Source: a virus
Virus record (IMG/VR): IMGVR_UViG_3300025141_000333
Coordinates: 1-36,140 of that record
Length of the DNA: 36,140 bases
Strand: one strand, 5' to 3'
Made by a program: the position numbers and the translations under genes. Position 1 is the first letter of the stretch, and every line of letters starts with the position of its first letter. The notes beneath the pieces were generated by a model. That model ran no database searches. It saw nothing but the letters and a program-made list of their open reading frames with translations, and was not told where the DNA came from. Positions 813-24,647 of this stretch are shown here, piece by piece.

Positions 813-3800
813 TCATGAATCTATCCCCGAACCTGTTAAATCAAACATGCTGCCGGTCGGAATGGTGGTAAGATCTGCTTGTACGGAATAAGAACAATCT
901 CCCCCTACCGCAGATAAATAGATTTCTTTTGTTTTTATGTTCATGGTTAATTTGTCATTTTTGTTCTCGAGCTTCCAATAATGCTTATTGGTAATTACCC
1001 CAGGATAAGACCCTGTGTGTTTTAAACCCATATATATGGCGCCCCCTCCGGCATCGCTAGCGGCCGGGTACCCCGAGGGTACTTCGGTTTCATACTCTCC
1101 GTATGCTGGATTGGGCATGCTGGCAGATGCGTTGGGAAAATCGGGATTATTGTTCAAAATAGCTCGACGTTCTATAGATCTGTTCCATAGCTTGCTCGTA
1201 GTATCGTCTGGCCACCCATCACTTGTGGCATTCGTATCAAAATTATACCAAATCAACTTTTGTGCGTTAACGTTATCTAGTGTCCAATTCCAGTTCCACT
1301 TCTCTTTGTCTAGCGCCGATCCTGTTGGCGTGGCGATATAAAATCTGCCATCATCAGGAACGGGTATACTCGCAGAAGCATTAGGGAAAGTCGCACAACT
1401 TCCGGTAATAGCACGAGGCTCCGTAGAATTATTATATAATATGCTGGTGGTATCGCCGCTATTTCGATTGCAATCATACCAGATCAATTTTTGTGCGTTA
1501 ACGTCGTCCAAAGCCCAATCCCAGTTGAATGATTTATTATCAATCGGATAAAGCCCCTTTGCTGGATGTCGAATGCTGGCGCTAGCAAAGGCAACAGAAG
1601 AAGTAACATTTGTGGCTTCATTATCTATGATAGAGGTAGTGTCTCCTGTGCCATCATCCATCTTCCAATGTAGGCATTTCTGAGCGCGGCGATCTCCGTA
1701 AGTGTCATTAAACCAGAAATTGTAGGTTGGACTGAGAGGTATGCAGCTTGCATTGATGCCAAAGTAAGATAGGCTAGCGTCGCCATAAGGTGATCGTATT
1801 TTGGTGCTGGAATATCCCGCGAGGCCTTTATCTATAGAGAGATCTACACCATACTCAACCGTTTTGCTCAAAGAAGCTGTTAGCCCGGACCATCCGGGGT
1901 CGCCTCCAGCATGGAAAACATCAAAATCTGTACCATATTTAGCTACTGTCCCATCACCGGTTCCATTGATCATGTGACAAAAATTAATAGCCGCTGTCTG
2001 GGGATATCCATTTCCGCCGCCTGCATTGCCAATAAGAAAGAATGTGTCGTCAGTGGCGGTGCCGCCGCCACCTCCTGGTCGGTAGGAAGGCATTCCTGTC
2101 ATCGCTCTAAATCGAGACAAGGTGCCAACGAAAGGCCAACTGCCATGATAATTAGCGATATCTAAATATCCAGTGTTGGTCACCCCTGAAAAAATGATAC
2201 CTCGCGCATTAGGATCAGCGCAAGGGGCAGTTGCAAAGCACCACTTGCCATAAGCATTGTTGGTCGCCAACATTTGTGTATAATCATATTCATCGCCGCT
2301 ATTGTAAACAGTGGTAATGTCCCCTGCCGTAAGCGCACGATCCCACACAACCATATCTCGGAATCGATATTCAGGACTCTTGTCGGAGGTAGAAGCAAAC
2401 GGATCACCAAATGACAAATAACTGTACTTGGTATTATGCATCCAGTTTCCAGCCGGAATACTCCATGCTGTATCGTTCCATGTAATCTCGTCCATTCCGC
2501 CGGCGTCATTAGATTGATAGAGCGTAGGTGTTGTCCGGCTCAGCCTTAAGGCATAAAATCGCCAATTTGTCTGATTATATCCATTAGAACTAGTGGCGGC
2601 TGGAAATGTTTCAGTGCCGGCGAATGCCGAACCTGCATTGCTAGCAGAAAACTGCTGAACGGCTCCTTGAAAAACGAACTTGCCATTGCCGGCAGCAGTT
2701 TGAGTCTTCAAATAGACTGTGGCTTCACTTGTCTTGTCCTCAGAAAAACCAACTATAACCGGCTCTTCTGCACCCAAAACGGTGTTAGCGTCTCCAGCCC
2801 AGTTAGAAGATGACAACATCCCCCACCATGTAACTGTCATCTCAGTTCCCATGGTAGAACCATCGGGCCATAGGCTAGCCTGTGCCATGCCACCAGCATT
2901 GGTCGTATCAATCGTTTGATAAGAACTAGATCCAAACAAAGTAGAATAAGGAGACACACTGTCCGATCCGGTCGGCATCGTTCCTTGGGTTGTGCCGGCA
3001 ACCAAATCGGTCCAGCCCGTCACGGCATCTGAGGTAAGGGCGCGCATGCGCAAATATTGGGCTAAACTAGAATCCTGTTCGGAAGACACCCATGTATCAA
3101 CGCCACCTTCAGTGTTCGGACTCATGGAAGCCGACAGTCCAGGGATTCCTTCTGTGATTCCTCCTGGCATCGTGGTGGCATTAACTTTATATTGAGCAGT
3201 TGTTCCCAGTCCGTTGATGGCATCGACTAAGTTTTTGGCGCTATCTGCTGCTGATGACTCTAGTTTAATCACCATATCAACTTCGTCCGTCGGATCGCTT
3301 CCGGGGAGCGTATTTACCTGCTGAAGAGTGATATCCTTAAATTCGCTTAAAGTGCTCCCATTCTGCTTCCATCCTTGTGGTAAGCGAATTTGAAATTGTG
3401 AATTGTTTTGTCCATTTACTACACTAAATCCTTTGTTGCCGCCGGTATAAGCATATTGATCTCCGATCGCCTGAGAAGCTTCGTCTGTCTTGGTTCCGAA
3501 TGTTCGTTGATAACTTCCATCGCGAGAATACACAAAACTTGACGATGGATAAGAAGTTCTCACCGGGAGAGGTGTTTCATAATCGACATTGTTGTGTTTT
3601 GCAAAAATGGCAGTTATGTCAGCTTCAATCAACGCACGATCCCACACAACCACATTGCGAATCTGTTGGGGTGCGGTTTCTGGATTTTGATTATAAGCAT
3701 CCCCTATGGTCAAATATGAACACTCCGACGAAGCAATGGTTTTTCCCGGGTCATAAGCCCTATTGATCTTGTGAATTCCGTTTATATAAATATCGACCGC

Positions 3801-7013: not shown

Positions 7014-8163
7014 TTAATACTCTCGAAAATTCTTCACTTAAAATGCGGCCAAGTTGTTTTTTACTAATACCTTCTTGCATTGTGGGATCGACCACATCCA
7101 CGGTACCCACATTCTTTTGGGCTGTTACGCCGGCGGCGCTAATCAATTTACGCAAATATTGCATCAACATTCCCACGTTTTGCTTATATACGCCCATTCT
7201 TTTATCAGGGTTTTTGGCGATGAAGCTTGTATAATTCTTGCCATACCATTTCTTATCTTTAGGATCTCGAATCGTGTTCATAACTTGATTAGCAATCTGA
7301 GCTAGCTGATCGATTTCAACAGCCTCAAGCTCCTTCTGAAGCGCTCGAGTAACTGCTTTGGCTAAGATAGAGTTCCCGTCTTTCCCGGGCTGAAACATCC
7401 GCAGACTTGCGCCTGATCCGGCGGCTTTGCCACGAAGCCGACCTTTGGCATGCCTGCGTTGTCCTTTGTTAAGTTTTACATTATCTGCCGACCCATAAGA
7501 TCCTACTTTGCCAGTACGGTCTTTTTTCTTTTGTCTCGCTCCATACTCTTCATTCAAAGGAAACAAATTGGCAAAGTCAATTTCAGTGATCACTACTTGG
7601 CGTTGAATACTTTCGCCCACATCAATATGAGCCTTTTTATCAATCTGTGCCAATGCGGGAAACAGAGCAGCCCTGAATGCTTTGAAGGTGGGCTTAAATT
7701 CTGGCTTATTCATCGCCGCTCCAAGCCGCTTTTTAATAATCTGGTCGATTTTCTTGGCGAGCTTTGGTCCCAGGGCGCCTTTGCCGCCGGGATGAAGCAC
7801 CATGCCCATTGTCGACAATTCGGTACCCGGGATATCCAACACATCACCGCTAGCCGCAGCGCTGGCGCTTGCTGGTGGTGCAGATAAAGGTGATACCGTG
7901 GCAGTCGGTACTGGTGTAGCACCGGGCCCGGGAGCGGTTGGGGATGTGGGGCTTGAGCTAGGTGCTTCTTCTTCCTCTTCATCACCAAAGGGTCCATAAA
8001 ACCTTCCCACAGCTTTGTTTATTTTGTCGCCGGCGGACCAGCGAGAGACTTTTCGACCCAGGTCTCCAAAAAAACCTTCTTCAATATCTTCAGATTCCTC
8101 CAGGTAACTTCGCCATGCCTCCATAATTTCTTTATCATTTGTAAAACTTGACCAATCACTCAT
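6970..8163 (-). CDS. Putative prohead core / internal head protein, 397 aa
   Basis: Near the N-terminus (residues 13-23) is IMEAWRSYLEE, one of three copies in this window of a motif like T4 capsid-targeting sequences. It is followed by an acidic run (GDEEEEEAP) and a Pro/Thr/Ala-rich low-complexity linker at about 65-110. The central part has a Lys-rich helix region, then a very basic segment (about 215-255, QRRHAKGRLRGKAAG). The C-terminus (ISKKQLGRILSEEFSRVL) resembles the start of the 139-aa protein. It overlaps the protease stop by 8 nt (ATGAGTGA). The location directly after the gp21-type protease, where T4 has its main core protein gp22, plus mixed charge and helices, suggests a core or internal protein processed by that protease. 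There is no recognisable homology to gp22. Confidence 0.7.
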   Translation of the reverse strand: MSDWSSFTNDKEIMEAWRSYLEESEDIEEGFFGDLGRKVSRWSAGDKINKAVGRFYGPFGDEEEEEAPSSSPTSPTAPGPGATPVPTATVSPLSAPPASASAAASGDVLDIPGTELSTMGMVLHPGGKGALGPKLAKKIDQIIKKRLGAAMNKPEFKPTFKAFRAALFPALAQIDKKAHIDVGESIQRQVVITEIDFANLFPLNEEYGARQKKKDRTGKVGSYGSADNVKLNKGQRRHAKGRLRGKAAGSGASLRMFQPGKDGNSILAKAVTRALQKELEAVEIDQLAQIANQVMNTIRDPKDKKWYGKNYTSFIAKNPDKRMGVYKQNVGMLMQYLRKLISAAGVTAQKNVGTVDVVDPTMQEGISKKQLGRILSEEFSRVLNEKTRTKRSNKADS

Positions 8164-8761
8164 TTTCTAATACCTCATTAAGTAACCTATTTATCTTATC
8201 GGCTCTAGTAAAGACTCGGTTTTCATAATCTCTAGCCTCTTTCATCATGAAGGCACCAGGAGTAGATGGCTCCGATACCATATCGAAACAAATCAATTGA
8301 AAATCATCTTCTACAATAGTTTGTCCATTGTGTTCCGTAACGGATCCCATCCCACGAGAGGAAATACCGATACTAACGCCACCCCTAACCAATTCTTGAA
8401 GAATTTTTCCGGACGGAGTGTTAAGAACTTGAATTTTTCCCATCACATTCTTGCCTTCCATCCAACAGGAGGTTACAAGATGAGAAGCATTCTTAAGATT
8501 AATAACAGAATCTTCAGGATGATCTAGTTCGCCTAGGGCTCTCTTTTCCTTAACTAGCTTTTGATAATTTTTTACTTCGTTCATAAGAACAGAGTGTGGG
8601 TAGACCCTACCATTGCCGTTAACAGTTTCCGCCATTTGCATGATACCGGAGAGCATCATACCACCCTCGGATACAAAACGCTTCTCTTCTTCTGTCAATA
8701 AATCCTGACAAACTCCGCCTTCGCAAAGTTGGTAATATTCTCTTAAAAGTTTTTTACTCAT
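8156..8761 (-). CDS. 21: Prohead core protease (T4 gp21-like), 201 aa
   Basis: The family pattern is clear: IMQMAETVNGNGRVYP at about 40-55, GELDHP with the candidate catalytic His81, ASHLV, GKIQVLNTPSGKI at about 109-120, GISSRG with the candidate nucleophile Ser at 134-135, and VEDDF near 150-154. The T4 gp21 family is a Ser/His herpes-assemblin-like protease that cleaves scaffold and internal head proteins after [LI]-x-E and then itself. I chose the ATG at 8761 because AGGTGA lies 7 nt upstream; an in-frame GTG at 8770 has no ribosome site. A terminator-like hairpin lies just upstream, so this gene may begin a new transcription unit or be read through. It probably processes the 397-, 296- and 314-aa proteins, which carry I-M-E and [LV]-x-E sites. 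Confidence 0.92.
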   Translation of the reverse strand: MSKKLLREYYQLCEGGVCQDLLTEEEKRFVSEGGMMLSGIMQMAETVNGNGRVYPHSVLMNEVKNYQKLVKEKRALGELDHPEDSVINLKNASHLVTSCWMEGKNVMGKIQVLNTPSGKILQELVRGGVSIGISSRGMGSVTEHNGQTIVEDDFQLICFDMVSEPSTPGAFMMKEARDYENRVFTRADKINRLLNEVLENE

Positions 8762-8774
8762 CGATTTCACCTAT

Positions 8775-9742: not shown

Positions 9743-10556
9743 TTTCAAAGATTTCCTGTTCTAATTGTTGCGTCCTTAAGATCGCCAAGATCATATCATC
9801 AGTAATTGGTGAGGATTGGTATGCTTCCAGCTTCTCAAAAACTTGCTCAGTTTTTTGTAACATATCTGCGTCTTTAAGGATTTCTGGGGAGTTGCACATG
9901 TCTTGCTTTCTTGCGCGAAGGCGTGTGATTTCCTGGACCAAAAACATCTTAAGCGACAAGGCGTTATCCGAAAAGGCAGAAATATAATTATTCAACAAAG
10001 TTTTCTGATTTTCTAGTAACTCAGTGTCATACTTGGTATTAAAGCGATTTACAAAGGAAGACACCACAACATCGTCGACGGGAGCGTTCTCTGTGGGGTC
10101 GCTTTCTTGACACATCATATCGGTGAGTTGACCCTCTAACATAACACATGCGCTCGGCGAAAGTTTATCAGAAAAAATCTGATCAATTGTGGCCAATGTT
10201 TTATAATTCGGAACAAAATTATTAAAAAACTTGGGTGTCAATTCCTTGTTCACATCTTTAATCAATTCCGTTTGGCTTTTAAATAAACCTTCTTTATCTA
10301 AAAGTCGCGAAGCTAATTTTGCTTCTTTTAGAATCTTTTCGCTGGTCTCTTGGGATAAGTTCTGATTCTCATAAAGCGAACGATAACACTGAAGATGTCG
10401 AAAAAGAATAGTGTCGGGAGAAAAATGCTCCTTAACAATGGCTATCGCAGCATCTCTACGCTCACTATTTTCTTTCAAAATAGCTATTGTTATCTCTTTA
10501 ATTAAAGCTTCAAAAACGAAAGCAGTGTTCCTTTTTTTATTGTGTTTAATCTTCAT
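9732..10556 (-). CDS. Conserved-type helical protein after portal, 274 aa
   Basis: The start MKIKHNKKRNTAFVFEALIKEIT is basic, then the protein is almost entirely helical and charged, with heptad-like runs (SEKILKEAKLASRLLDKEG, FLVQEITRLRARKQDM, MLQKTEQVFEKLEAYQ). There is no signal peptide or membrane segment. It overlaps the portal stop by 11 nt (ATG at 10556, portal stop at 10546), so translation is coupled to portal. The position right after portal and the helical make-up fit a prohead core or portal-associated assembly factor, as for T4 gp67/gp68, but no sequence match to those can be claimed. Confidence 0.68.
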   Translation of the reverse strand: MKIKHNKKRNTAFVFEALIKEITIAILKENSERRDAAIAIVKEHFSPDTILFRHLQCYRSLYENQNLSQETSEKILKEAKLASRLLDKEGLFKSQTELIKDVNKELTPKFFNNFVPNYKTLATIDQIFSDKLSPSACVMLEGQLTDMMCQESDPTENAPVDDVVVSSFVNRFNTKYDTELLENQKTLLNNYISAFSDNALSLKMFLVQEITRLRARKQDMCNSPEILKDADMLQKTEQVFEKLEAYQSSPITDDMILAILRTQQLEQEIFENGD

Positions 10557-12528
10557 TAGTTATTTGCTCCGTTGGTGTGTTGGTCTCCAAGTCTTCGATG
10601 AGGGTGCGAATAGATTCATTTAACTGAAGCATTTTTCTTTCCTCAGCCTCTTCTGATCTATTATAAGTAGGGTCTTCGTATTCGTAAATCCCCGCACCCA
10701 AACCCTGCATTGTGGTCATACCTTTCAAATCAGAATAACCGGGCATCACATTCCGTATACCCGAACTCGCTTTTTGTTGGCCTCCATGTGCCACGTAAGA
10801 ACGGCTTCTGGCGCCGGCAGGTCGTCGATCTACTTTCTTTGGAAAATGTTTCTTCCCTTTAGCTTGGGGCTCTAGAGACTTGTTTGTGGGGACATTGCGA
10901 GATCCTGGTGGAACCGCCAACAGTGGACTTTCGTCTCCGCCGCCAGCATCGCCGGCTGGCATCTCTGTGCCTCCGCCTAACTCTTCGCCTCCCAGATCTC
11001 CGCCAAGATCACCACCAAGATCACCTCCCAAGTCGCCTCCTAGGTCGCCGCCTGCGCCGTCGGCTGCCGCCGCTTCAGCAACAGCTTGAAGGGCTGCATC
11101 TTGTTTTCGATCATAAAAAAGCTCTCGTTGGTTGCGTATAAAATCTTCATGAGACATACCAAAGACATTTTCAGATACCCATCTACGGGAAAAGAAGCCC
11201 TCAGTAGCAGAAGCAGCAATATCAAACTTAGACTTCCAGTGTTCCAGTTCTTGTAATTCAGCAATCTTAGAAGGGTTATTTAGAGAAAGATTAAAAGACA
11301 ACAAATCATCGCCGCGAAAGCCGAGCGTATAAAGATGAATAATTCCTATCTTTTCTAGCTCAGCTATAATAACGCGCTGGAGTCTTTGGACGGTTCTAGC
11401 AAATCGAATGTCTTTCTGCGCTAGCGTAGTCTTGTCCTCAGAACCTTCTTCGCCCATGGATAAGTAAGCTTGGGGTACTTTAAGTGCAGAAAACAATTTA
11501 TCACGCAAATATTTGATGTCATCTATTTGTGTAATGTTTTGTGCTCCAGCCAGACTCTGAATTTCGGTTACTGATCCGGCGCGAACAGGGATAAAATAAT
11601 CCTCTTCGATAGACATGGGGTTATATCTTAAATCGACACGGCCAGTCTTAGGGTCTACCACGCTATGTCTCTTTAGTTGAGAAACAATCTTTTGCATATA
11701 TTGTTCGACATCCTGCGGGGCTATGCCCCCCACATCAATCTTGAACACACGCCTTTCAGAAGAACGAATTACGCGATAAGCCATCATTGCATCTTCCATA
11801 AGAACAAGCTGTCGCCAAATGCGACGAGCAGGTTCGAGAATAGATGTTCCATATGGAGCATACTTGTCGTTACCCAAAATTCGAAAGTGTGCGACTTGCC
11901 AATTCTCAAAAGTCATTCCAGCAGAATTCCACTGATATTGGACATAATTGGGGTTTGTCGAATCCTGACCCTCGAGTCTCTCGATTTCAGGGGAGGGAAG
12001 AGCAATAACCGACTTAACTCCGTATTTCTCGTCTATATCTAGATACAGAAAGAAATCGCCATATTTAGACATTGTGCGGGCCCATCCGAATAAGTTATAC
12101 TCAAGATTTAATATGTTGCTGTATAAGCTCGCCAACACTGCTTTGATCTCTTCATTCGCGCATTTGATATTAAGCATAGGTCGAAGATCGGAATAGGTCG
12201 TCATCTCATCGGCATAAATATCTAGTGTTGACGCAATCTCTGGCATGTACTCCATTTGATCGAAATCAATATAACGCTCTCCACGACGTTGGTTTTGGAT
12301 TGCATTAGCCGCAATGTTGTCCAAAGGGTTATACAGAGTCTTCTTGAACTGTTGTCCGGAGGCAGACTTGAATCGCGATGAAAACTTATCTAAATGCTGT
12401 CGTCGTATCCGTCGACCGGACTGCGAACGATAGTTAACAATTGGTCCCGAAAAAAGCCGCGTAAGTGCTTTAAAAAGCTGGGACTGGTTATTAACAGGGT
12501 TGTTACCTTTTTTAACTGGTGGCGCCAT
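10546..12528 (-). CDS. 20: Portal vertex protein (T4 gp20-like), 660 aa
   Basis: The length is near the T4 gp20 class (524 aa) plus a long C-terminal extension. Family features include RYIDFDQMEYMPEIASTLDIYADEMT at about 80-105, EEDYFIPVR, TQIDDIKYLRDKLFSALKVP at about 340-360 and the long helix of the portal stem (LRDKLF through RLQRVIIAELEKIG). Portals form the 12-fold ring at the unique capsid vertex through which DNA is packed. From about residue 500 a low-complexity GGDL repeat (five units) is followed by a Gly/Asp/Pro-rich and basic tail, unlike T4 gp20. It lies 8 nt after terminase, the usual gp17-gp20 neighbourhood. The identification is strong. Confidence 0.92.
   Translation of the reverse strand: MAPPVKKGNNPVNNQSQLFKALTRLFSGPIVNYRSQSGRRIRRQHLDKFSSRFKSASGQQFKKTLYNPLDNIAANAIQNQRRGERYIDFDQMEYMPEIASTLDIYADEMTTYSDLRPMLNIKCANEEIKAVLASLYSNILNLEYNLFGWARTMSKYGDFFLYLDIDEKYGVKSVIALPSPEIERLEGQDSTNPNYVQYQWNSAGMTFENWQVAHFRILGNDKYAPYGTSILEPARRIWRQLVLMEDAMMAYRVIRSSERRVFKIDVGGIAPQDVEQYMQKIVSQLKRHSVVDPKTGRVDLRYNPMSIEEDYFIPVRAGSVTEIQSLAGAQNITQIDDIKYLRDKLFSALKVPQAYLSMGEEGSEDKTTLAQKDIRFARTVQRLQRVIIAELEKIGIIHLYTLGFRGDDLLSFNLSLNNPSKIAELQELEHWKSKFDIAASATEGFFSRRWVSENVFGMSHEDFIRNQRELFYDRKQDAALQAVAEAAAADGAGGDLGGDLGGDLGGDLGGDLGGEELGGGTEMPAGDAGGGDESPLLAVPPGSRNVPTNKSLEPQAKGKKHFPKKVDRRPAGARSRSYVAHGGQQKASSGIRNVMPGYSDLKGMTTMQGLGAGIYEYEDPTYNRSEEAEERKMLQLNESIRTLIEDLETNTPTEQITNED
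10990..11052 (-). repeat. 20: 12-nt tandem repeat encoding GGDL in portal
   Basis: About five copies of a 12-base unit encode GGDL-GGDL-GGDL-GGDL-GGDL in the portal C-terminal extension. The units differ at wobble positions, so the repeat is old enough to have drifted but is kept in frame. Such repeats change copy number readily by slippage, giving a flexible acidic linker of variable length. Confidence 0.85.
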
Positions 12529-12536
12529 ATGTTATC

Positions 12537-14120
12537 TCACTTTATAATCCATTTAAATTGATCGTATAAATTTTTTGCATCTACAACTTTGTCGGCTAAA
12601 TTATCCGATCTATATCCTATTTGACCTTTCACTTGTGTATTCATTGTTGTGCGCGTAGTAAATATTGCATCAACAAACGCTTTCTGATAATTAAGGTCTC
12701 GAGCGCTTGACTGGATTGCAGTATCCCGCACCCAACAAGCTATAGCCAGGGCCATAATAAGATCATCATGATACCCCTTCATTGCCTGGGGTCTACCGTT
12801 GTTCCAAATAAAAGTTTTCATTTCGTTGACAGTCCGCGAAGAATATAGAGTAATTAGTTTATTTCTTATAAACTCTTCTAATTTCGCAATAATTAGCGGC
12901 CGGGTCTTGGCAGTTGTGGAAAACCCAGCTACTGAGTTGCTGCGCACTTCGGCTTGGTGTTGTTCGATATATTCATGTGTAGACTTAATAGAATAATAAA
13001 GATTAGGATAAGCATATTCAATTAATTTATCCAACACAGTGTATCCGATATTGTTATTCTCTACTACCAACATCGCGTTGCCAAATTCTCGACCAACCTG
13101 ATTTAACATGTTGGCATACAGATCCGGAGTGGGCTTTCCTTGATATTCCCCGATGATCTCCATAGTTTCTAATTTAAGAAGATGGAAAGTGGAATAGTCA
13201 GCAGCGTCTCCGCGAGCCACGTCAACAACCATAAGGTAATTACAAGTAGGATCAAATTCTTCCCAGATCCAAAAGTTTCGATCGAATCCGGTTCTATGTT
13301 TTGGTTCTTTGACATTAGATAACATCCATTCCATGCAATCTGGATCAATAACTGTTTCACCAGATGTATTAAAATTACACTCAAGCTCTTGCGCAATTTG
13401 TCTCCGAGACATGTTTCGCGTCTCTTTCTTAAACCACTCTTCGTCTCTATCCGGATGGACCTCCCACTTAAGAGTTGTTAAATTAAAGTTATTGATGTTG
13501 CTTTCGGCATCTTGACATGTTTTGTGAAACCAGTTTCCAACGCCGTTCGGAGTAGAAAGCGCGATACAGCGCCCACCGGTCGAAAGAGTGGGGTATAAAC
13601 CTGTCCAAAGATCTTCCAACCCTTCGATGTGAGCAGCCTCATCTAACACAAGAAGCGACAATGCTTCCGAACGCCCGGCATCGCCTGAAGTCGAAGTAGC
13701 CTTAATAGTTGAACCGTTCGAAAGCTCAAAGGACGTTCTATTGTCTACATCAATCTTAGAGATCGATAGCCACGATGGGAGATTTTTCATGATGCTTTTG
13801 ACTTTTTTAACTAAGTTTCCTGCTGTGGCAAACTTGGTGGCCATCACGAGAATGTTCTTGTCTCGATGAAAAAGCATCATCCAAACAATGTAGCCGGCAG
13901 TAATGGTTGAAATACCTAACTGCCTAGCCTTCAAAATAACATTGAAGCGATAGTCATTAAAATCCTTAAGAAGTTCATCCTGAAAGTCGTATGTGTTGAA
14001 AAGAATAAGCCCATGCAGCGGATGAGAAATTCGAGCATACGTTTTCAAAAAATAAGAAGGATCTTTACCACATTTGAGGATTTCAGCAACTTGTTGTTTT
14101 TTAGTTAACTTGAAGCTCAT
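12537..14120 (-). CDS. 17: Terminase large subunit (T4 gp17-like), 527 aa
   Basis: The ATPase domain has a Walker A-type motif KARQLGIST at residues 64-72, the phage variant of gp17, and Walker B LLVLDE at 156-161, followed by AAHI and a coupling segment ALSTPNG at 187-193. The RNase H-like nuclease domain has MVVDVARGD with Asp300, VVENNN with Glu354 and YHDDLIMALAI with Asp452-453. All three acidic catalytic positions are present, so it should be active in both DNA translocation and headful cutting. It starts 8 nt after the 177-aa gene stop and is followed by portal. The length is slightly shorter than T4 gp17 (610 aa). No small terminase subunit was recognised in the window. Confidence 0.95.
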   Translation of the reverse strand: MSFKLTKKQQVAEILKCGKDPSYFLKTYARISHPLHGLILFNTYDFQDELLKDFNDYRFNVILKARQLGISTITAGYIVWMMLFHRDKNILVMATKFATAGNLVKKVKSIMKNLPSWLSISKIDVDNRTSFELSNGSTIKATSTSGDAGRSEALSLLVLDEAAHIEGLEDLWTGLYPTLSTGGRCIALSTPNGVGNWFHKTCQDAESNINNFNLTTLKWEVHPDRDEEWFKKETRNMSRRQIAQELECNFNTSGETVIDPDCMEWMLSNVKEPKHRTGFDRNFWIWEEFDPTCNYLMVVDVARGDAADYSTFHLLKLETMEIIGEYQGKPTPDLYANMLNQVGREFGNAMLVVENNNIGYTVLDKLIEYAYPNLYYSIKSTHEYIEQHQAEVRSNSVAGFSTTAKTRPLIIAKLEEFIRNKLITLYSSRTVNEMKTFIWNNGRPQAMKGYHDDLIMALAIACWVRDTAIQSSARDLNYQKAFVDAIFTTRTTMNTQVKGQIGYRSDNLADKVVDAKNLYDQFKWIIK

Positions 14121-15808: not shown

Positions 15809-16002
15809 CCCACGCCTTTAAGTTTAGCGATACCATCAATAACAGTTTGTCCGCCAATATAAAGCGCCGAGATAATAACCCAATCTCCGGATTCCAATCC
15901 AGACGTCACCATCAAAGCAGTGGCCGTTAGCCACACCAAAAACTTTCGAGAAATTGCCTTCTCAACTAGTTTATCCAGTTTTCCTTGTGCATATTGCATC
16001 AT
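15805..16002 (-). CDS. Putative holin, 65 aa
   Basis: The small protein has two hydrophobic segments, FLVWLTATALMVTSGL at about 21-36 and WVIISALYIGGQTVIDGI at about 41-58, joined by a short acidic turn (ESGD). A charged N-terminus (QGKLDKLVEKAISRK) and a basic C-terminus complete it. This is a class II-like holin layout; holins make the inner-membrane hole that starts lysis. Two ATG codons in a row open the gene, with AAGGAG 5-7 nt upstream, the best ribosome site in the cassette. It overlaps the i-spanin-like gene by 4 nt. No endolysin gene was found in the window. Confidence 0.6.
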   Translation of the reverse strand: MMQYAQGKLDKLVEKAISRKFLVWLTATALMVTSGLESGDWVIISALYIGGQTVIDGIAKLKGVG

Positions 16003-16005
16003 TCG

Positions 16006-16158
16006 TTACTCCTTTTCGTAATCTGATAGGTTTTTAATCATCTCAGTGTTCTCATAAGTAGAGCCAATTTCTTGATCGCTGAGCTTCTCCTGTGTGAAAT
16101 AAGCACTCACACAGACACCAAACACAAAGACTAATCCCAAAATAATATTCCTTTTCAT
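16006..16158 (-). CDS. Small membrane or secreted peptide, 50 aa
   Basis: The protein reads MKRNIILGLVFVFGVCVSAY at the N-terminus, a typical signal or anchor segment, followed by a 30-residue acidic polar tail ending NLSDYEKE. A Cys at residue 16 sits in the hydrophobic run, but the residue before it is Val, so it is not a standard lipobox. A GGGGTGG Shine-Dalgarno lies just upstream and the gene directly follows the promoter at 16176-16204. It is the first gene of the lysis cassette, ending 3 nt before the holin candidate. It could be an antiholin or a small lysis regulator; nothing in the sequence proves that. Confidence 0.6.
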   Translation of the reverse strand: MKRNIILGLVFVFGVCVSAYFTQEKLSDQEIGSTYENTEMIKNLSDYEKE

Positions 16159-16175
16159 TTTCCACCCCTATTAAT

Positions 16176-16204
16176 AATATATCACATTATCCCGCACTTG
16201 TCAA
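16176..16204 (-). promoter_or_regulatory. Sigma-70-type promoter of the lysis/terminase operon
   Basis: The minus strand has TTGACA (16199-16204), exactly 17 bases, then TATATT (16176-16181). The -35 box is perfect and the -10 box matches five of six. Predicted start near 16169 gives a leader of about 11 nt before the ATG at 16158. It sits two bases after the stop of the 296-aa gene, so it would begin a unit holding the lysis cassette, terminase and portal. Confidence 0.85.
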
Positions 16205-16205
16205 G

Positions 16206-17096
16206 TTAATATTGAACAGAATCATTTAATCGTTGCAGTTCGCCCAATAAAGACTCCACATCTTGATGCCCCAATGACTGTGCAATCGAAATGCCCCCGT
16301 CCTCTGAGGAATTAATGCGTTCTTGAACGTGTTTTGTTGCTCCCTCTACTTTGCCTTTGTATACATCAAAAGCAACGGACCAATCCGGAGGCAACATCTC
16401 CAGTCCCGATCCAGGATGATTGTCAAATGTTTTAGGCAAGTTGGGAGCTTTCTTCGTATAGGACCATTGTCCACTGGATCCGTAAAGAAGCTTATAGAGT
16501 CTATCGATATCCCACTTTTCTAAATGTGTCTGATAATCGTCCACACTTACGTTGCTCAAAGGCAGAACGAATTCGCCATCTAATTGATCGGGAGTAACCC
16601 ATGTGTAATCGCCGACTGTTGGACTACGGCTCCAATTCTTGTCCAGAGGCATCAAATCGCCGGCTTTATCGCTTTTTCCAAAAGTCGGCATATCGGTAAG
16701 CCCACCAATATCTTGTTGAGACTGAGGGGCTTTGGATACACCGTCATGGCTCGTTATAGCCGATCCAATGCCGGCACCCCCGCCAAGTCCGAGCGCCGTG
16801 GCCAAACCAAGACCTGCGAGTCCTTTTTTCCAACTAGCCTCATCCACCTGATCAATTTTTGATAGGGCAGCCAAAAGTTTAACGTTGTCATAGGTGGGTC
16901 CGATTTGTTTTTGCTCAGAGAGATAACCGCGCCATCCTTCCATTATCACTTGCATATTATGCCCCTCTTCGACTGAGTAAAGTTTTTTAAGATATTGTTT
17001 TGCTTTCTCGATCGAATCTGAGCATCCTACTTTGTCGCCTAGGGTGCCATCTGTGTTCTTTTTGTAAACACATTTTCCACTGCGAATATATGGCAT
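16206..17096 (-). CDS. Putative internal head / ejection protein, 296 aa
   Basis: Three parts are visible. Residues 1-45 form a small Cys-bearing module (RSGKCVYKKNTDGTLGDK, VGCSDSIEKAKQYLKKLY). Residues 51-61 are IMEGWRGYLSE, a copy of the window's shared targeting-like motif. Residues 92-114 are a Gly-rich hydrophobic stretch (GLAGLGLATALGLGGGAGIG), like a glycine zipper able to enter membranes. The rest is polar, with Trp-rich segments (WDIDRLYKLLYGSSGQWSY). No enzyme motif is seen. The ATG overlaps the upstream stop as TAATG. The targeting motif, prohead-protease-type site and glycine zipper together suggest a protein packed in the capsid and released into the cell envelope with DNA; this is inference. 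Confidence 0.65.
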   Translation of the reverse strand: MPYIRSGKCVYKKNTDGTLGDKVGCSDSIEKAKQYLKKLYSVEEGHNMQVIMEGWRGYLSEQKQIGPTYDNVKLLAALSKIDQVDEASWKKGLAGLGLATALGLGGGAGIGSAITSHDGVSKAPQSQQDIGGLTDMPTFGKSDKAGDLMPLDKNWSRSPTVGDYTWVTPDQLDGEFVLPLSNVSVDDYQTHLEKWDIDRLYKLLYGSSGQWSYTKKAPNLPKTFDNHPGSGLEMLPPDWSVAFDVYKGKVEGATKHVQERINSSEDGGISIAQSLGHQDVESLLGELQRLNDSVQY

Positions 17097-17515
17097 TATT
17101 TATCTTTCCGATCTTTTGCCATCTTGCGGAATGTTTTAGCCAAATTGTATCGTTTGGATCCGGGAGGACACTTTTCGCTTCCGAAATTCTCCCCTGTGCA
17201 CACACCTTCTGTTCCTCGGCGTTCGATATCTTTCTCTGCATCTTGAATCCAATCGTCGTCCTTTTCTTCCGAAAGTTGCAATTGAGATAGGATCATATCC
17301 AGCTTGCTCTCAATACTAGCAACCCTACTTTCGAGATCTGGTTCTTCTGCGGCAGCCGCACATGGAGAGACCTCTTCTGCATCGGGAACAGTTAGACGAG
17401 TATGTCCGCGCATGCCTCCGGTTTCTCCCGGGAGATAACCTCCCATGCCTCCAACTCGAATCTCTTCAAGTTCTTCAGCAATAAGTTTTTTAAGTTCGGA
17501 TTTTGTAATTTTCAT
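17096..17515 (-). CDS. Small putative head-associated protein, 139 aa
   Basis: The N-terminal helix MKITKSELKKLIAEELEEI is of a kind I recall at the start of many marine phage virion proteins, and it contains I-x-E cleavage-type sites. A Gly/Met-rich segment follows, then a coiled coil (LESRVASIESKLDMILSQLQ, about 70-90) and a C-terminal module GTEGVCTGENFGSEKCPPGS followed by KRYNLAKTFRKMAK, with two Cys and a basic end. The ATG at 17515 has GGAG 8 nt upstream and lies 2 nt after the FtsZ-like stop. A longer frame reaching 17842 exists but lies inside the FtsZ-like gene and is not supported. Likely a capsid-internal or core protein; function unknown. Confidence 0.68.
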   Translation of the reverse strand: MKITKSELKKLIAEELEEIRVGGMGGYLPGETGGMRGHTRLTVPDAEEVSPCAAAAEEPDLESRVASIESKLDMILSQLQLSEEKDDDWIQDAEKDIERRGTEGVCTGENFGSEKCPPGSKRYNLAKTFRKMAKDRKDK

Positions 17516-17517
17516 GA

Positions 17518-18666
17518 TTATTCTCCAGTAGGTAATCCATTCATACCTAGTATAGCAATAAGCCCAGGTACGTTTTGTCGTACATATACTCCCGAAAAGA
17601 GTGTTTCGCATCGACCACCTACGTATGCGATCGCAGATTCCAAATGTTTGCTGATACGGGGATCTGCAACCATTTCTTCGGAAGCCACCAATACGAGAGA
17701 GCCGGCTGCTGCCTTTCCTTTCGGCGGAGGACAAGGAGAGCGGTTCATACAGTTGTGAAGAATCACCGACCCAAGCTTTGCGGTGTTCGGATCTTTGATC
17801 ATAGTCGAACCTACAAAGCCGCGGCCGTTGTTTGCGAGACACGTTTCCAAATCTTTTGAGTCGAAAGACTGGATCGGTGAATCTTCATCTGAGAGTTTGA
17901 GCACCTGAGCCAATGACTTAGCAAACTGTGTGTTAGCAACGGGGTACAAACCAAGCATCCCGATCCTACCACGCAGAAGCCGCGTCGCTCTTTCATTATC
18001 CAACACAAAGTGAGGATAAACAGACACATCATTAAGGAGGGTGAGTGCGTTTTTGGCAATAGTAGGGTTTAACGCCTCTTGGGCAGTCGGCCATGAAACT
18101 ATATAAACGACCTTACCGGTCGACTGAACCGACTGCATATATCGCTCAAAAACATTATGAAGTGCTGCAACTGACGATCCGGTGCCACCACCACCACCAG
18201 CAAAAACAAATAACCAATCGACTTTCCCAAACCTAATTCGCAATGCGTCTTCTACGACTGCGCCGTTCTGAGAAAGTATTTCTTTTCCGTAGTCAATATT
18301 CTTACCAATTCCATCTGAATCGGGAATAAGACATACATGTTCTTCGGCTACATTCTTAGGAATATCTTTTCCTGTAGAATTAACCAGAAGCGTCTTGTTG
18401 AAGCCAAGCTGTAAAAATGCGTTGGCCATCTTATTGCCGCCGCCGCCAACACCCACAAATCCGATGTTTAACGAAGACGGTGCGGTGTTGTCAGGAAGCA
18501 AATCCTCATCCGCATATTCCATTTGGAGTCCAAAATCTTCCACCATGCCAAAATCTTCGGCTTCCACCTTTTCGTGATACGTATCTTTCTCTTGTACGAA
18601 AGATGGTGGTGGCTCTGCCGGAGGCAGAAAATCAAACTCGTTCTTAGTTTCTTTCTTTTTAGTCAT
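17518..18666 (-). CDS. FtsZ/tubulin-like GTPase, 382 aa
   Basis: Nucleotide-binding loops are clear: T1 GFVGVGGGGNKMAN at residues 69-82, the tubulin signature FAGGGGGTGSS at 155-165, and T3-like LLVNST at 93-98. The C-terminal T7 region FDSKDLET matches FtsZ VDFADVRT with both catalytic aspartates kept (Asp269, Asp272), so polymer-dependent GTP hydrolysis is expected. A 65-residue acidic, Pro-rich N-terminal extension is unusual, and the C-terminus ends soon after the fold, without a long FtsA/ZipA-binding tail. Phage relatives such as PhuZ and TubZ position DNA or segregate plasmids. Its start directly abuts the stop of the ParB-like gene, in one operon with the Mre11-Rad50 protein. It could center phage DNA or capsids, or interfere with host FtsZ. 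Confidence 0.88.
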   Translation of the reverse strand: MTKKKETKNEFDFLPPAEPPPSFVQEKDTYHEKVEAEDFGMVEDFGLQMEYADEDLLPDNTAPSSLNIGFVGVGGGGNKMANAFLQLGFNKTLLVNSTGKDIPKNVAEEHVCLIPDSDGIGKNIDYGKEILSQNGAVVEDALRIRFGKVDWLFVFAGGGGGTGSSVAALHNVFERYMQSVQSTGKVVYIVSWPTAQEALNPTIAKNALTLLNDVSVYPHFVLDNERATRLLRGRIGMLGLYPVANTQFAKSLAQVLKLSDEDSPIQSFDSKDLETCLANNGRGFVGSTMIKDPNTAKLGSVILHNCMNRSPCPPPKGKAAAGSLVLVASEEMVADPRISKHLESAIAYVGGRCETLFSGVYVRQNVPGLIAILGMNGLPTGE

Positions 18667-19611
18667 TTACGATTGATCCTTGTGTTGTTTGGCTCCCGTA
18701 TATGCTGCTTTGTAATTAACTTCGCCTGACTTCATTTTATCCACAACTTGGCCAAGGCTCACTTGTCCAGCGTGGGTTTCGCCACCATCAAACTGAGGCA
18801 TATAATCTCGCACAGGGCCCTGCGGTGGGGGGAGAGAGGATAGATTATTAGACACCACATTGACAATTTGCATCATGGTTTTCTCAGGAGACATTCCCGG
18901 CTTTACACCCCACAATTTTTGGGCGGCCGGGACATCCACTATTTTTTCTAAATATTCAGGTCCAAGAAGAGTCCCTGCTTCTGTCGATTGTCCTATTCGA
19001 TCTATGATCATTTTCTTAATTGTTTGGGCATCTTTTCCTAGTATATTATCAGATGAAGCTTCATCTTCGGGATCCCCACCAGTAGTGGCCTTTGGAACTG
19101 CGCCGGCATCGGCATCCATTGTTGCTGCTATAGCAACTTGGGCTACCGCCAATTTGTTCAGCGGGCCTTTTCCGGGAAGTTGAATATCTACTGCGTTAAT
19201 CGGCGCTTCCGCGCCGGCGGTAGCCCAAGTGGACGACCAGCGATGATGGCCATCGATGACCAAATTTCCCGCAACTACAATTTTCATACCTCGCCCAGTA
19301 ATATCACCCGTCAGGGCATTGGAGACTGATCCAAGAGTAGAAAGTGGCCACCCAATTGATTTCATCAAACTAATCTCATTTTGGGTAGGAGCCAAATTTC
19401 CAACAAGAGGCTTGGCATCTGGAATCACCTCAATAACCTCATCATTAGGAATACCATCTTCGTCGCCAGATCCCAGAATTGCTCTCACTTTAGGATCTTG
19501 TCCTTCGGGTGAATTTAAAAAATCCACCACCGGAACAACTTTGTTTTGGGAAAAATCGTCCGGCAATTTTTCATTTACAAATTTCTTCCAGTTTTCCATA
19601 ATAAGTTTCAT
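18667..19611 (-). CDS. ParB-like domain protein with head-targeting-like N-terminus, 314 aa
   Basis: Residues 73-86 (LAPTQNEISLMKSI) and 111-126 (IVVAGNLVIDGHHRWS) match the ParB/Srx fold, in which D-G-H-H-R forms the nucleotide-binding site. In ParB this fold binds CTP; in other relatives it has nuclease or kinase activity, so the chemistry is open. No helix-turn-helix is evident after it. The N-terminus MKLIMENWKKFVNE carries the shared motif (I4 to E14) that resembles T4 capsid-targeting sequences. Residues about 150-200 are an Ala/Gly/Asp-rich linker. Its ATG overlaps the Mre11-Rad50 stop by 4 nt (ATGA), and the FtsZ-like gene starts right after its stop. Possible roles are an injected internal protein or a DNA-partition partner. 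Confidence 0.78.
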   Translation of the reverse strand: MKLIMENWKKFVNEKLPDDFSQNKVVPVVDFLNSPEGQDPKVRAILGSGDEDGIPNDEVIEVIPDAKPLVGNLAPTQNEISLMKSIGWPLSTLGSVSNALTGDITGRGMKIVVAGNLVIDGHHRWSSTWATAGAEAPINAVDIQLPGKGPLNKLAVAQVAIAATMDADAGAVPKATTGGDPEDEASSDNILGKDAQTIKKMIIDRIGQSTEAGTLLGPEYLEKIVDVPAAQKLWGVKPGMSPEKTMMQIVNVVSNNLSSLPPPQGPVRDYMPQFDGGETHAGQVSLGQVVDKMKSGEVNYKAAYTGAKQHKDQS

Positions 19612-22600
19612 TGATTAACCCTTGCATGTCCTTGGAATTTTTCTATTACGATCTGTTGATCGACACAATCCTTGAGAGATTCAAGGTGTGAGATCAGCAA
19701 AACGTTCTTAAAATACACCTTAATTAGTGCCAAGATACGAATAAATCCCTCTAAATTTTCTTCATCCAGTGCAGTTCCGGGCTCATCAAGAATAAACAAG
19801 TCTCCCTTGGGCAACGAAGAAACACTCAACAACGCCAAACGAATAGCCATTGCTGCCATTGTCTTTTCTGATCCGGATGCCATCTCGATGGGGCGCGCCT
19901 CATACTGAGGATGTTTAATGAAGATATCAAACTTGTTTCCGCTGCTCTCAAAGAATATTTCGAAATCCACAATGTTAGTTAAGATTTTCGCAATCTCCTG
20001 GTTAATAACAGGAATCTTCTTTTTAATAATGTCGTAAGCAATCCCGTTGGAATGCATACACCTCATGAACAAATCATAAGCCGAAAATGAAGCTTGGAGA
20101 TTTTTATATTCTTCTTTTTGAGATCTTAAGAATTCTATCCGCTGCTCACAAGATCCTACTAATTTTACCAACTCTAATGTTTGCTCATCACACTCACAGA
20201 TTGAGTCCTCTTTTGCGGCCGCCTTCAGATCGTGATCCACACGCATTTGAAGAAGTCTTTCTAAGTTCTCGATAGCTTCCTTGTTAGAATTATATTCGCC
20301 AATTTTGGCTATGACCTCAGATAGCTTAGACTCTTGGCTAATAAGAAGCCCTTTGTTTCTTTCTCGACGCAGACTTAATTCGGATATTTCCTTTTCGGCA
20401 CTTACAACCCCTAGCTGCAACTCGCTATACGCACTCATTTTGGCCGCTGTCTCAGTGGGGTTAAGAGACATCAAGCGTTGTTGCGCAGCACGACGATCGC
20501 CTTCCACTAACTCTTCAGACGCAACAGCAATGTGAGCATCACGAATAAATTTGCAGCCTGGATAAGAACTCCCACAAGGAATCCCAGATAGAAGTTTTGC
20601 TTTCTTTTGAATATCTTTAAGTTCTTTATCGAACTTCGCCTCTTGTTGTTGGGTTTGGCGAATCATTTCCATCGTTTCCTTTAGATCGTCAAAATCCATA
20701 TCGCTCAACAATCTTGTCGATTCACGCACCTCTTCTTTTCTCAACTCAATCATTTGAGAATCTTCTATAATCTTTTGTTTGAGAGAGATGATGGCGTTGC
20801 TCTTTTGGGTTTGAGACTCCTTTAGTTTAACAATGTCAATATATTCATTAGGAATGGAATTAATAGTCTCATTAACTGTGATCAGTGACGTATGGATTAA
20901 TTTTAATTCTTCCCTCATTGAGAGACAGAGTCCTTTGTTTTTCTCCGCCCCCTTTCGATAGGTTGTCAATTCGTCTTCCACTTCCGCGATTTCATTATCA
21001 TAATCTTTATCTTGATGCTTCTTAAGAAGAACCTTCATATCTACAGAGTCTTCTTTTGCTAATTTAAATTTCTTATCAAATATCTCCAAATCTAAGAACT
21101 TGGCGATAATTTCTTTACGTCGGGTAGATCCTTCATCAATAAACGCCAACGAACCGTGTTGAGACGCCAGAGAAGACACAGAAAAATCTTCAATAGACCC
21201 AAAGTGCTTTCTAATATTTGCATCCGTCTGGTTGCGAGTAGTGGCGTTTAATGAGGTAGTTTCTCCAGTAATCATATCATAGACTTCAAAATTCAAATCA
21301 GTCTTGGCCTCGAGGGTTTCTTCTCCTTTTAATCTCTTGGTGTATTTCTCGGATTTACGAGAAATCGTATATATCTTTTCTCCTACCTCTATCTCTAATT
21401 CTCCAAAGCAATCGTCTTTGTTCTGATTAATAACATTAAGATTTTTTCTTTCGTTCTTTGAAGTGGTATTAAATAAAGTGTACAAGGCGGCATCCACAAT
21501 CGAGCTTTTTCCGGAAAAGTTCTTTCCAAAGATCCCAATAATTCCGTTGAGATTATCAAACTTGATGGAGTTCCCTTTTCCATAATTAAAGAGGTTATCC
21601 CACCTGAAAGATTTTAGTTTCCAATTTATGTTTCTGGAGATATCTTCGCTGTTTTCTACCAATTTATTATAGTGGCGATTGATTTCAAAAACTTTGTCTA
21701 GCGTCTCTTCGCTAGCTTGATATTCTTTTAAATATTCCCTCATCAATTGTTCTTGAATTTTGGGATCTCGAAGGTTTTCTGTTTGGAGTGTGCCAGTGAA
21801 TTCCTCTACGGTACCCCTTTGTCCCGACGCTCGATTCAGAAACGAGATGCTTTCTGGCTCAAAACGATGCTTGGCGATATCCAAGGCGCGCCGCATCGTA
21901 TCCAGAGGCAAGTTGTTGTTGCTTACCAAGCGCAACCGAGCACCCTTTGGCACCACTACCTTGTTGGGCATTCGTCCCTTTGGAGTCAGTTGTATGGTAA
22001 CAAAAGGTTTTGGATTTTTTAAAACAACGGGCTCAATGTCCCATTCCTCTTTCGAGGATATGTCCCAAATGAGAATACCTTTGTCGTTAGTTTCGCCATG
22101 GTTTTGTTGAACTGTGGAGCCAGCGTACCAGATGCGGCCGGCATCATCTAGAAACTGGCGGCGATGGATATCTCCCAACATTGCAAAATCAAAACTATTA
22201 AAAATATCTATATTATCTTCACCGTAATCCATCACCCAATTAGTGTCTGTACGACAACTGGAGATAGAACCATGATATAAAGCAATGTTAATCTTATCTT
22301 TATCGGAAGGATCTGTCCAATTATCTCTATCAAAAACTGAGAGGACATTCAAACAAAAGTTTTCGTCGATGTGTGTCTCTCCTGAGTTTTTAAGAAGATG
22401 TAGATTGGACAAGTCAAGCGCCTCTACAACAGGAGTAAGGGCATCTTGGCGGCTGCTGTTCTTCAGATTTCCATCATGGTTGCCTAAAATGATATATGTT
22501 GGCGCTATCTCCGCTAAGCTGCGAAAAAAATTAGAACACATCTCCACAAACTCGGGGGAAATTTGGGTCTTAGTGTGCGCTATGTCTCCGCAGTGTATGA

Positions 22601-22715
22601 TGTAATCAACTTCTTCTTCTTTAAGCTTGTCGTAAAGTTGTTGGAATACGATGCGATACTCATAATGATATTTTAAATTCTTAATATGAGTATCGCTAAT
22701 ATGTGCAAACTTCAA
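19608..22715 (-). CDS. 47-46: Fused Mre11-Rad50 (SbcD-SbcC, gp47-gp46) recombination nuclease, 1035 aa
   Basis: The N-terminal half is a metallophosphoesterase of the Mre11/SbcD/gp47 type: HISDTHIK (5-12), HCGDIAH (41-47), GNHD (78-81), YHGS (147-150) and GDIHRRQ (181-187). The second half is Rad50/SbcC/gp46: Walker A GIFGKNFSGKSS at 394-405, long coiled coils at about 570-710 and 740-880, a Cys714-x6-Cys721 hook (PCGSSYPGCKF), signature MASGSEKT at 945-952, Walker B LFILDEPG at 973-980 and the H-loop LISHLES. Together these make a DNA end-processing ATPase-nuclease for recombination-dependent replication. T4 uses two separate proteins. The start is TTG at 22715 with GGAGGG just upstream, and the SDTH motif fits that start exactly. 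It is driven by the promoter at 22750-22778. Confidence 0.93.
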   Translation of the reverse strand: MKFAHISDTHIKNLKYHYEYRIVFQQLYDKLKEEEVDYIIHCGDIAHTKTQISPEFVEMCSNFFRSLAEIAPTYIILGNHDGNLKNSSRQDALTPVVEALDLSNLHLLKNSGETHIDENFCLNVLSVFDRDNWTDPSDKDKINIALYHGSISSCRTDTNWVMDYGEDNIDIFNSFDFAMLGDIHRRQFLDDAGRIWYAGSTVQQNHGETNDKGILIWDISSKEEWDIEPVVLKNPKPFVTIQLTPKGRMPNKVVVPKGARLRLVSNNNLPLDTMRRALDIAKHRFEPESISFLNRASGQRGTVEEFTGTLQTENLRDPKIQEQLMREYLKEYQASEETLDKVFEINRHYNKLVENSEDISRNINWKLKSFRWDNLFNYGKGNSIKFDNLNGIIGIFGKNFSGKSSIVDAALYTLFNTTSKNERKNLNVINQNKDDCFGELEIEVGEKIYTISRKSEKYTKRLKGEETLEAKTDLNFEVYDMITGETTSLNATTRNQTDANIRKHFGSIEDFSVSSLASQHGSLAFIDEGSTRRKEIIAKFLDLEIFDKKFKLAKEDSVDMKVLLKKHQDKDYDNEIAEVEDELTTYRKGAEKNKGLCLSMREELKLIHTSLITVNETINSIPNEYIDIVKLKESQTQKSNAIISLKQKIIEDSQMIELRKEEVRESTRLLSDMDFDDLKETMEMIRQTQQQEAKFDKELKDIQKKAKLLSGIPCGSSYPGCKFIRDAHIAVASEELVEGDRRAAQQRLMSLNPTETAAKMSAYSELQLGVVSAEKEISELSLRRERNKGLLISQESKLSEVIAKIGEYNSNKEAIENLERLLQMRVDHDLKAAAKEDSICECDEQTLELVKLVGSCEQRIEFLRSQKEEYKNLQASFSAYDLFMRCMHSNGIAYDIIKKKIPVINQEIAKILTNIVDFEIFFESSGNKFDIFIKHPQYEARPIEMASGSEKTMAAMAIRLALLSVSSLPKGDLFILDEPGTALDEENLEGFIRILALIKVYFKNVLLISHLESLKDCVDQQIVIEKFQGHARVNQ

Positions 22716-22749: not shown

Positions 22750-22778
22750 ATTATAACCTATTATATAACATTTGTCAA
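22750..22778 (-). promoter_or_regulatory. Consensus sigma-70 promoter of the Mre11-Rad50 operon
   Basis: TTGACA (22773-22778), 17 bases, TATAAT (22750-22755): a perfect match in both boxes and spacing. The -10 region AATAGGTTATAATAT is the same as in the RuvC promoter. Predicted start near 22743 gives a leader of about 28 nt. It probably drives the Mre11-Rad50, ParB-like, FtsZ-like and following genes. Confidence 0.9.
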
Positions 22779-24038: not shown

Positions 24039-24067
24039 AATATATCCCGTTATAGTAGGTATGTCAA
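24039..24067 (-). promoter_or_regulatory. Sigma-70-type promoter of primase gene
   Basis: TTGACA (24062-24067), 17 bases, TATATT (24039-24044). The -35 box overlaps the last codons of the RuvC-like gene. Predicted start near 24032 gives a leader of only about 10 nt, with a GAGGG ribosome site inside it. Confidence 0.85.
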
Positions 24068-24618: not shown

Positions 24619-24647
24619 ATTATAACCTATTTTTTGCTAAATGTCAA
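24619..24647 (-). promoter_or_regulatory. Consensus sigma-70 promoter of RuvC gene, predicted leaderless
   Basis: TTGACA (24642-24647), 17 bases, TATAAT (24619-24624): a perfect consensus. It overlaps the last codons of the 419-aa tail gene. The expected start, about 7 nt past the -10 box, falls on the A of the RuvC ATG. The AATAGGTTATAATAT segment is shared with the Mre11-Rad50 promoter. Confidence 0.88.

Follow-up and report, generated by a model that had tools for sequence, protein, structure and literature searches.

The minus-strand reading frame at 17518-18666 of the viral DNA analysed here (the window, i.e., all 36,140 nucleotides of IMG/VR record IMGVR_UViG_3300025141_000333) is, as judged from sequence comparison and a structure model, a genuine gene whose 382-aa product is predicted to be a GTPase of the tubulin/FtsZ superfamily. 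We refer to this gene and its product as TUB. By the tests run, the protein is placed outside the described FtsZ, TubZ and PhuZ families, and its gene apparently belongs to the core set of T4-like phages that form an abundant, uncultured group. Tubulins of phages have mainly been described from jumbo phages that form a nucleus (PhuZ, which is helpful there without being essential) and from plasmid-like elements (TubZ). New is a phage tubulin/FtsZ-like GTPase in a T4-like group for which the literature searched holds no prior record; the kind of protein as such is already known.

The reading frame itself, reported in a preliminary description of this DNA, was borne out and lies on the minus strand. 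It begins with an ATG at 18666, directly behind the TAA stop that ends the preceding gene, and the plus strand of 17518-18666 shows many stops and no open frame. A chance frame can be dismissed, since at least 250 relatives exist and synonymous differences are near saturation at a pN/pS of about 0.13. TUB matches PF00091 (Pfam Tubulin) with 34.8 bits (E 2.7e-8), above the curated cut-off of 33, and the same family is matched by all 22 of the 22 diverse relatives scanned. An AF2 model built from 22 sequences displays a tubulin fold (pLDDT 82.7, core >90, pTM 0.80); it was used instead of a poorer model from 8 sequences (pLDDT 70.8).

The loops typical of such a GTPase can be located on the minus strand. 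The T1 loop VGVGGGGNK (18430-18456) is kept family-wide apart from single positions, the T3 loop SDGIGKN (18298-18318) is of the TubZ/CetZ/phage-G type, and the T4 signature loop AGGGGGTGSS (18172-18201), evident from the alignment, includes the previously noted GGGGGTGSS at residues 157-165. An LDNE motif in the T6/H7 region (17992-18003) is shared with TubZ, CetZ and phage G. The T7 loop SPIQSFDSKDLETC (17839-17880) carries D269 and D272 within its core SFDSKD, so both aspartates named in the preliminary description are indeed kept; they are invariant in our family alignment (A4), and the GTP loops and the T7 loop are retained in all aligned members. In the window copy, S267 replaces the Asn of the FtsZ motif NxDxxD; the relatives have either Ser or Thr at this position. 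At its C-terminus, the protein ends four residues past the last beta-strand (E369-378) of the AF2 model. An FtsZ-type C-terminal linker and a conserved FtsA/ZipA-binding peptide are absent from sequence and model, in good agreement with the earlier statement that TUB lacks the FtsZ tail.

The N-terminus deserves attention of its own. Residues 1-66 (18469-18666, minus strand) form an arm that is acidic, with 17 acidic versus 6 basic positions among residues 1-65, and that is predicted to be disordered, with pLDDT below 50 at residues 1-8 and 18-51. An acidic extension of 65 residues had been described before and stands at 66, yet that account was incomplete, as the arm also holds a motif under stronger constraint than any other segment of TUB. 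This motif, EDFGMVEDFGLQMEYADEDLLPDN (18487-18558, minus strand; residues 37-60), was delimited by alignment A4 and by its lowest pN/pS, and reads EDFGMVEDFG...LPDN in the window copy. While synonymous differences across TUB are near saturation (pS ~0.8, precisely 0.82) at a pN of 0.105, pN/pS is 0.05 for residues 37-60, 0.15 for the GTPase domain and 0.10 for the C-terminal part. In side lineages, the arm varies from about 30 to more than 90 residues and the core [ED]DF[GD].[VI]..[YF]...LP[ED]N is retained (alignment A4). Since a disordered arm of variable length thus carries a fixed short motif, comparison with FtsZ suggests an adaptor- or cargo-binding tail, i.e., a counterpart of the FtsZ C-terminal peptide at the opposite end of the protein. 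The gene as a whole is also strongly conserved. Main-clade relatives have a median identity, measured in each case to the window copy only, of 85.5% for TUB, 81.8% for the gp17 terminase, 75.3% for the gp20 portal, 74.6% for the gp21 protease and 59.2% for SbcCD.

To which family TUB is closest depends somewhat on the method. The NCBIfam FtsZ equivalog TIGR00065 is matched with 37.2 bits against a cut-off of 295.2, and PF00091 gives 147-181 bits for Bacteroidota FtsZ (main locus) versus 35 for TUB. A tree built from 27 proteins resolves the viral TUB family (98/99) and FtsZ (99/100) as two distinct starred clades, whose stems measure 1.85 and 2.19 changes per site, respectively. The tree leans TUB toward TubZ and phage G with a support of 67/45 and does not group CetZ with it; by AU test, however, every grouping tried is still compatible with the data, those of the viral family with FtsZ and with CetZ included (p 0.10 each). 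Profile-profile comparison yields 141.6 over about 290 columns against TubZ/phage G and 85.2 against FtsZ, which puts the TUB profile nearer to TubZ and phage G gp138 than to FtsZ. The TubZ sequences compared stem from plasmids of Bacillus, Priestia, Pontibacillus and Planococcus, those of virulence plasmids and toxin phages being left out. The loops give a mixed picture, as T1 and T4 are glycine-rich like those of FtsZ, T3 (DGIGKN) and T6 (LDNE) resemble TubZ, phage G and CetZ, and the T7 pattern SxDxxD is that of phiKZ PhuZ, FtsZ having NxDxxD. By Foldseek, CetZ, FtsZ and TubZ are about equal (TM ~0.6-0.68 by query length) and PhuZ is lower (~0.50). The preliminary description considered TUB closer to FtsZ than to PhuZ; the distinction from PhuZ holds, a special likeness to FtsZ does not.

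Each known system shares some features with TUB and lacks others. Phage G gp138, a putative FtsZ-like protein, and TubZ of Gram-positive plasmids provide the best profile match and have the T3 pattern G.G[RK][ND] and the T6 motif DNE/DNQ in common with TUB, but identity to gp138 is only about 27% over half of the protein, gp138 retains NxDxxD where TUB has SxDxxD, and the TubZ and gp138 proteins examined have a longer C-terminus and no counterpart of the N-terminal arm. Bacterial FtsZ shares the GTPase domain, the glycine-rich T4 loop and both T7 aspartates; it has the T7 Asn and a C-terminal linker and peptide, whereas TUB has Ser and, instead, the conserved N-terminal arm. CetZ is the top Foldseek match (3zid, E 5e-20, TM 0.63/0.66), likewise lacks the T7 Asn, and is the sole top-ranking PDB sequence match that extends to the C-terminus, although at 21% identity. 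The best viral structural match is A0A6J5RW92 in BFVD, annotated as 'FtsZ Cell division GTPase' of an uncultured Caudovirales phage; it reaches TM 0.73 by query length, but shows 16% identity and belongs to a separate family.

PhuZ is the best-studied phage tubulin, and its filaments place DNA centrally and transport capsids (PMC7950403, PMC11724907). It is dispensable and missing from a clade with 24% of known chimalliviruses (PMC11724907). Like TUB, PhuZ is a phage-encoded tubulin, and in phiKZ its T7 loop also reads SxDxxD. We rejected an identity with PhuZ on account of the weaker structure match (TM ~0.50), the missing PF22334 domain and the lack of detectable chimallin in these phages: the PhuZ C-terminal domain PF22334 was found neither in the scanned members of alignment A4 nor in nine genomes, and chimallin was not found in the seven long relatives searched, while the phiKZ control was recovered in both cases.

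A search of IMG/VR with the family alignment retrieved at least 250 stretches encoding TUB relatives. The best 80 matches to the window copy are 83-99% identical to it, and a second set is 54-63% identical. Outside this collection, few matches were found. Among 50,697 phage records (tblastn), only Bacillus phage G gp138 matches, and weakly so; one plasmid protein matches with E 0.2; and a degenerate-pattern scan of 84,980 cellular species genomes gave one match; it lies in a Flavobacteriaceae MAG, on a contig of 15 kb that is best read as a phage contig binned with the MAG. PHROGs hold no family for TUB (best E 0.029), and the open-access literature searched contains no description of the family and no tubulin recorded for this phage group. 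Judged by terminase, the phages that come closest among isolated or complete ones are Flavobacterium phage immuto (48%), a 484-kb metagenomic phage (44%) and Microcystis phage Mel-JY01 (43%). No TUB homologue occurs in their profile-screened regions, and tblastn of phage records gave none there either. When loci were sampled by their terminase, TUB was present in 17 of 18 with enough upstream DNA, at least four of which look like copies of one population; in the remaining one (L384), it is absent between SbcCD and the terminase. The IMG/VR sample series of the TUB-bearing records are, as we take them, marine. The phage group is widespread, uncultured and T4-like, and apparently marine.

The genes around TUB support the T4-like nature of the phage, which had been proposed before: the terminase large subunit (gp17-like, 12537-14120; PHROG 2), the portal protein (gp20-like, 10546-12528; PHROG 213) and the prohead maturation protease (gp21-like, 8156-8770; PHROG 207), all on the minus strand, are T4-type by PHROG matches. 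The operon that contains TUB starts with a fused SbcD-SbcC (gp47-gp46-like) exonuclease (19608-22715, minus strand; PHROG 77 and 100). Here SbcD and SbcC make up one 1035-aa gene, with its nearest relatives in Microcystis phage Mel-JY01 and in the 484-kb metagenomic phage. There follows a gene for a 314-aa protein (18667-19611, minus strand) with a capsid-targeting-like N-terminus (MKLIMENWKKFVNEK), whose stop codon abuts the TUB start. It is not conserved at this place beside TUB, and similar genes flank TUB in the 190-kb record G001. A ParB-like VIDGHHRW motif is visible by eye in the 314-aa protein, which has no Pfam match. On the other side of TUB lies a gene for a 139-aa protein (17096-17515, minus strand; start corrected with respect to the ORF list), again with a capsid-targeting-like N-terminus (MKITKSELKKLIAEELEE). 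In syntenic main-clade loci, TUB resides in the tract between the fused SbcCD and the terminase-portal-protease genes, with variable small genes on either side. Several side lineages have it in the late head cluster, in the orders gp20-TUB-gp21 (L280), gp21-TUB-gp23, the last being the major capsid protein (L299), and gp23-TUB-head-tail adaptor (L265); in L291, it follows a gene of late-sigma type. The position beside recombination and head genes, called unusual at first, is confirmed as a location; far from being an oddity of the window, it is shared as a constant trait by a large group of phages.

Several TUB-flanking genes encode short N-termini resembling T4 capsid-targeting peptides (MKLIMENWKKFVNE, MKITKSELKKLIAEELEE), a likeness that we assume on the basis of the T4 internal proteins. 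Unrelated genes with such N-termini (MENWKKFVNE, ITKSELKKLIAEE) are clustered in the window at 18667-19611, 17096-17515 and 16206-16955, and in G001 at 2610-5555, 9866-12370 and 95699-97954. From their sequences, these genes, several of them directly beside TUB, possibly encode internal head proteins that are injected. G001 also harbours a phage one-piece tmRNA (L155, 18710-19047; RF00023, 106 bits) with the tag ANNNNHYDEVRLAA.

A sigma70-type promoter with the perfect sequence TTGACA-N17-TATAAT (22750-22778, minus strand) precedes the SbcCD-TUB operon, and a near-perfect one lies ahead of the next operon at 16176-16204 (minus strand). Further near-perfect TTGACA-N17-TATA[AT]T sites occur on the minus strand of the window at 24619-24647 and 24039-24067. 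G001 has 26 such sites on the coding strand versus 1-7 in simulated sequence; directly behind a perfect one there is a gene for a GroEL-like chaperonin (166964-168595; named by eye, MSREYGNNRDLQQRILNGANVLADNVASTLGPRGRNVLLR). A near-perfect site lies just upstream of SbcCD in 32 of 52 relatives. Close to TUB itself, such a site was seen at a single locus out of 83, a phage-G-like one. A search for late promoters (TATAAATA) gave no useful signal, with 7 sites versus 2.4 expected, 3 of them antisense. Owing to the sigma70-type operon promoter, we read TUB of the main clade as probably transcribed together with SbcCD in the early or middle phase. In the side lineages, no sigma70-type promoter is near the head-cluster TUB. 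The Bacteroidota promoter consensus is not matched by TTGACA/TATAAT, and the near-perfect sites in the window and in G001 thus argue against a Bacteroidota host.

For the role of TUB, we propose the following. TUB would assemble into GTP-dependent head-to-tail filaments in the infected cell. Within the tubulin/FtsZ superfamily, the T7 aspartates of one subunit complete the GTP site of the next subunit; those of TUB would do likewise, with hydrolysis upon assembly. The N-terminal motif would recruit an adaptor, and the filaments would move or position replicating DNA, proheads or both in the steps from replication to packaging. Since chimallin was not detected, such a filament would act on naked replication centres or on proheads. 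Few capsids exist at the time of an early or middle promoter, and hence the organisation of DNA fits better than prohead transport in the main clade; as the head-cluster site of the side lineages pulls the opposite way, the cargo is left as DNA and/or proheads, the most likely candidates to judge from gene position only. By analogy with its superfamily, TUB likely polymerises. This was first concluded from the two aspartates being present; the preserved loops do make it likely, the replacement of the FtsZ T7 Asn by Ser is a reservation that the first account did not make. For the entire reading, a GTP-driven filament system that organises virus production, with replicating DNA and/or proheads as most likely objects, we see about an even chance. 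In its favour are the preserved loops, the tubulin fold, the conservation, the constraint on the motif, the neighbourhood of SbcCD and head genes, the presence in 17 of 18 terminase-selected loci, the flanking genes with capsid-targeting-like N-termini and the precedent of PhuZ. Against it are the T7 Ser, the sigma70-type promoter, the weakness of gene neighbourhood as evidence and L384, which has no TUB at the usual place.

Other roles have to be weighed against this one. In side lineages, TUB lies directly between the portal and protease genes or between gp21 and the major capsid gene, and it has neighbours with capsid-targeting-like N-termini; this would also suit a head-assembly factor or structural component of prohead formation that uses GTP as an assembly switch and forms no long filament. 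We regard this as unlikely: TUB has no capsid-targeting sequence of its own, in the main clade a sigma70-type promoter precedes the operon that it shares with SbcCD, and we know of no such tubulin in any phage head. A somewhat lower probability is assigned to a block of host division, in which TUB would copolymerise with or sequester host FtsZ and the cell would be kept large and undivided. A homologue without the membrane-tethering FtsZ tail is what a dominant-negative subunit might look like; however, co-assembly is improbable at 15-20% identity to FtsZ structures and given the separate clades, a division poison would not need conserved catalytic aspartates, and a gene directed against diverse hosts would not usually be more constrained than the terminase.

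The TubZ/phage-G group, the closest profile match, brings up a role in partitioning a phage genome that is plasmid-like or in a pseudolysogenic state, and TubZ of phage c-st does partition the phage genome (PMC7950403). This, too, we hold to be rather improbable. Plasmid TubZ works with TubR and iterons, neither of which was found at the TUB locus: instead of a TubR-like small gene, the unrelated 314-aa gene and then SbcCD lie directly upstream, no Pfam HTH domain was met in the neighbours scanned, and only chance-like two-copy repeats, no tubC iterons, occur in 15900-20000. As the gene content is moreover that of a virulent T4-like phage, a TubZRC partition system was set aside. A recent capture of a host ftsZ, finally, which the preliminary description had named as a phylogenetic outcome that would refute its reading, has next to no probability. 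The FtsZ-like glycine-rich T1 and T4 loops and the one relative in a Flavobacteriaceae MAG point in its direction, but it was rejected on the equivalog score (37 versus 295 bits), the PF00091 scores (35 versus 147-181 bits) and a tree that keeps FtsZ and the viral family in separate clades with long stems.

Besides TUB, a second protein of these phages drew our attention. At 139596-140435, G001 encodes a 279-aa protein without GTP loops (L445; relatives L404-L444), close to genes that were identified by eye as gp32 and PolA-like. It is found at 41 loci in IMG/VR and in seven of the eight TUB-bearing records of at least 130 kb searched, being missing from G004. Its profile is collinear with the TubZ/phage-G profile over 177 residues with a score of 35.3, versus a maximum of 26.0 in 60 column shuffles, and hhalign assigns a probability of 32% to this match. 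Pfam and phage records gave no matches, PHROGs one weak match, and PDB matches were at chance level. Its sequence would be compatible with a degenerate TubZ-like protein, possibly. That these phages, having no phage nucleus, rely on a core cytoskeleton of two tubulins, TUB and a degenerate partner, cap or regulator, in a filament system needed for virion production, is a doubtful extension of the filament proposal.

With the TUB family, the tubulin/FtsZ tree gains a deep viral branch, and the N-terminal motif of the family offers a concrete handle for finding the adaptor. Should TUB polymerise, phage cytoskeletons would organise infected cells even where no phage nucleus is formed, and such organisation may be widespread in the ocean.
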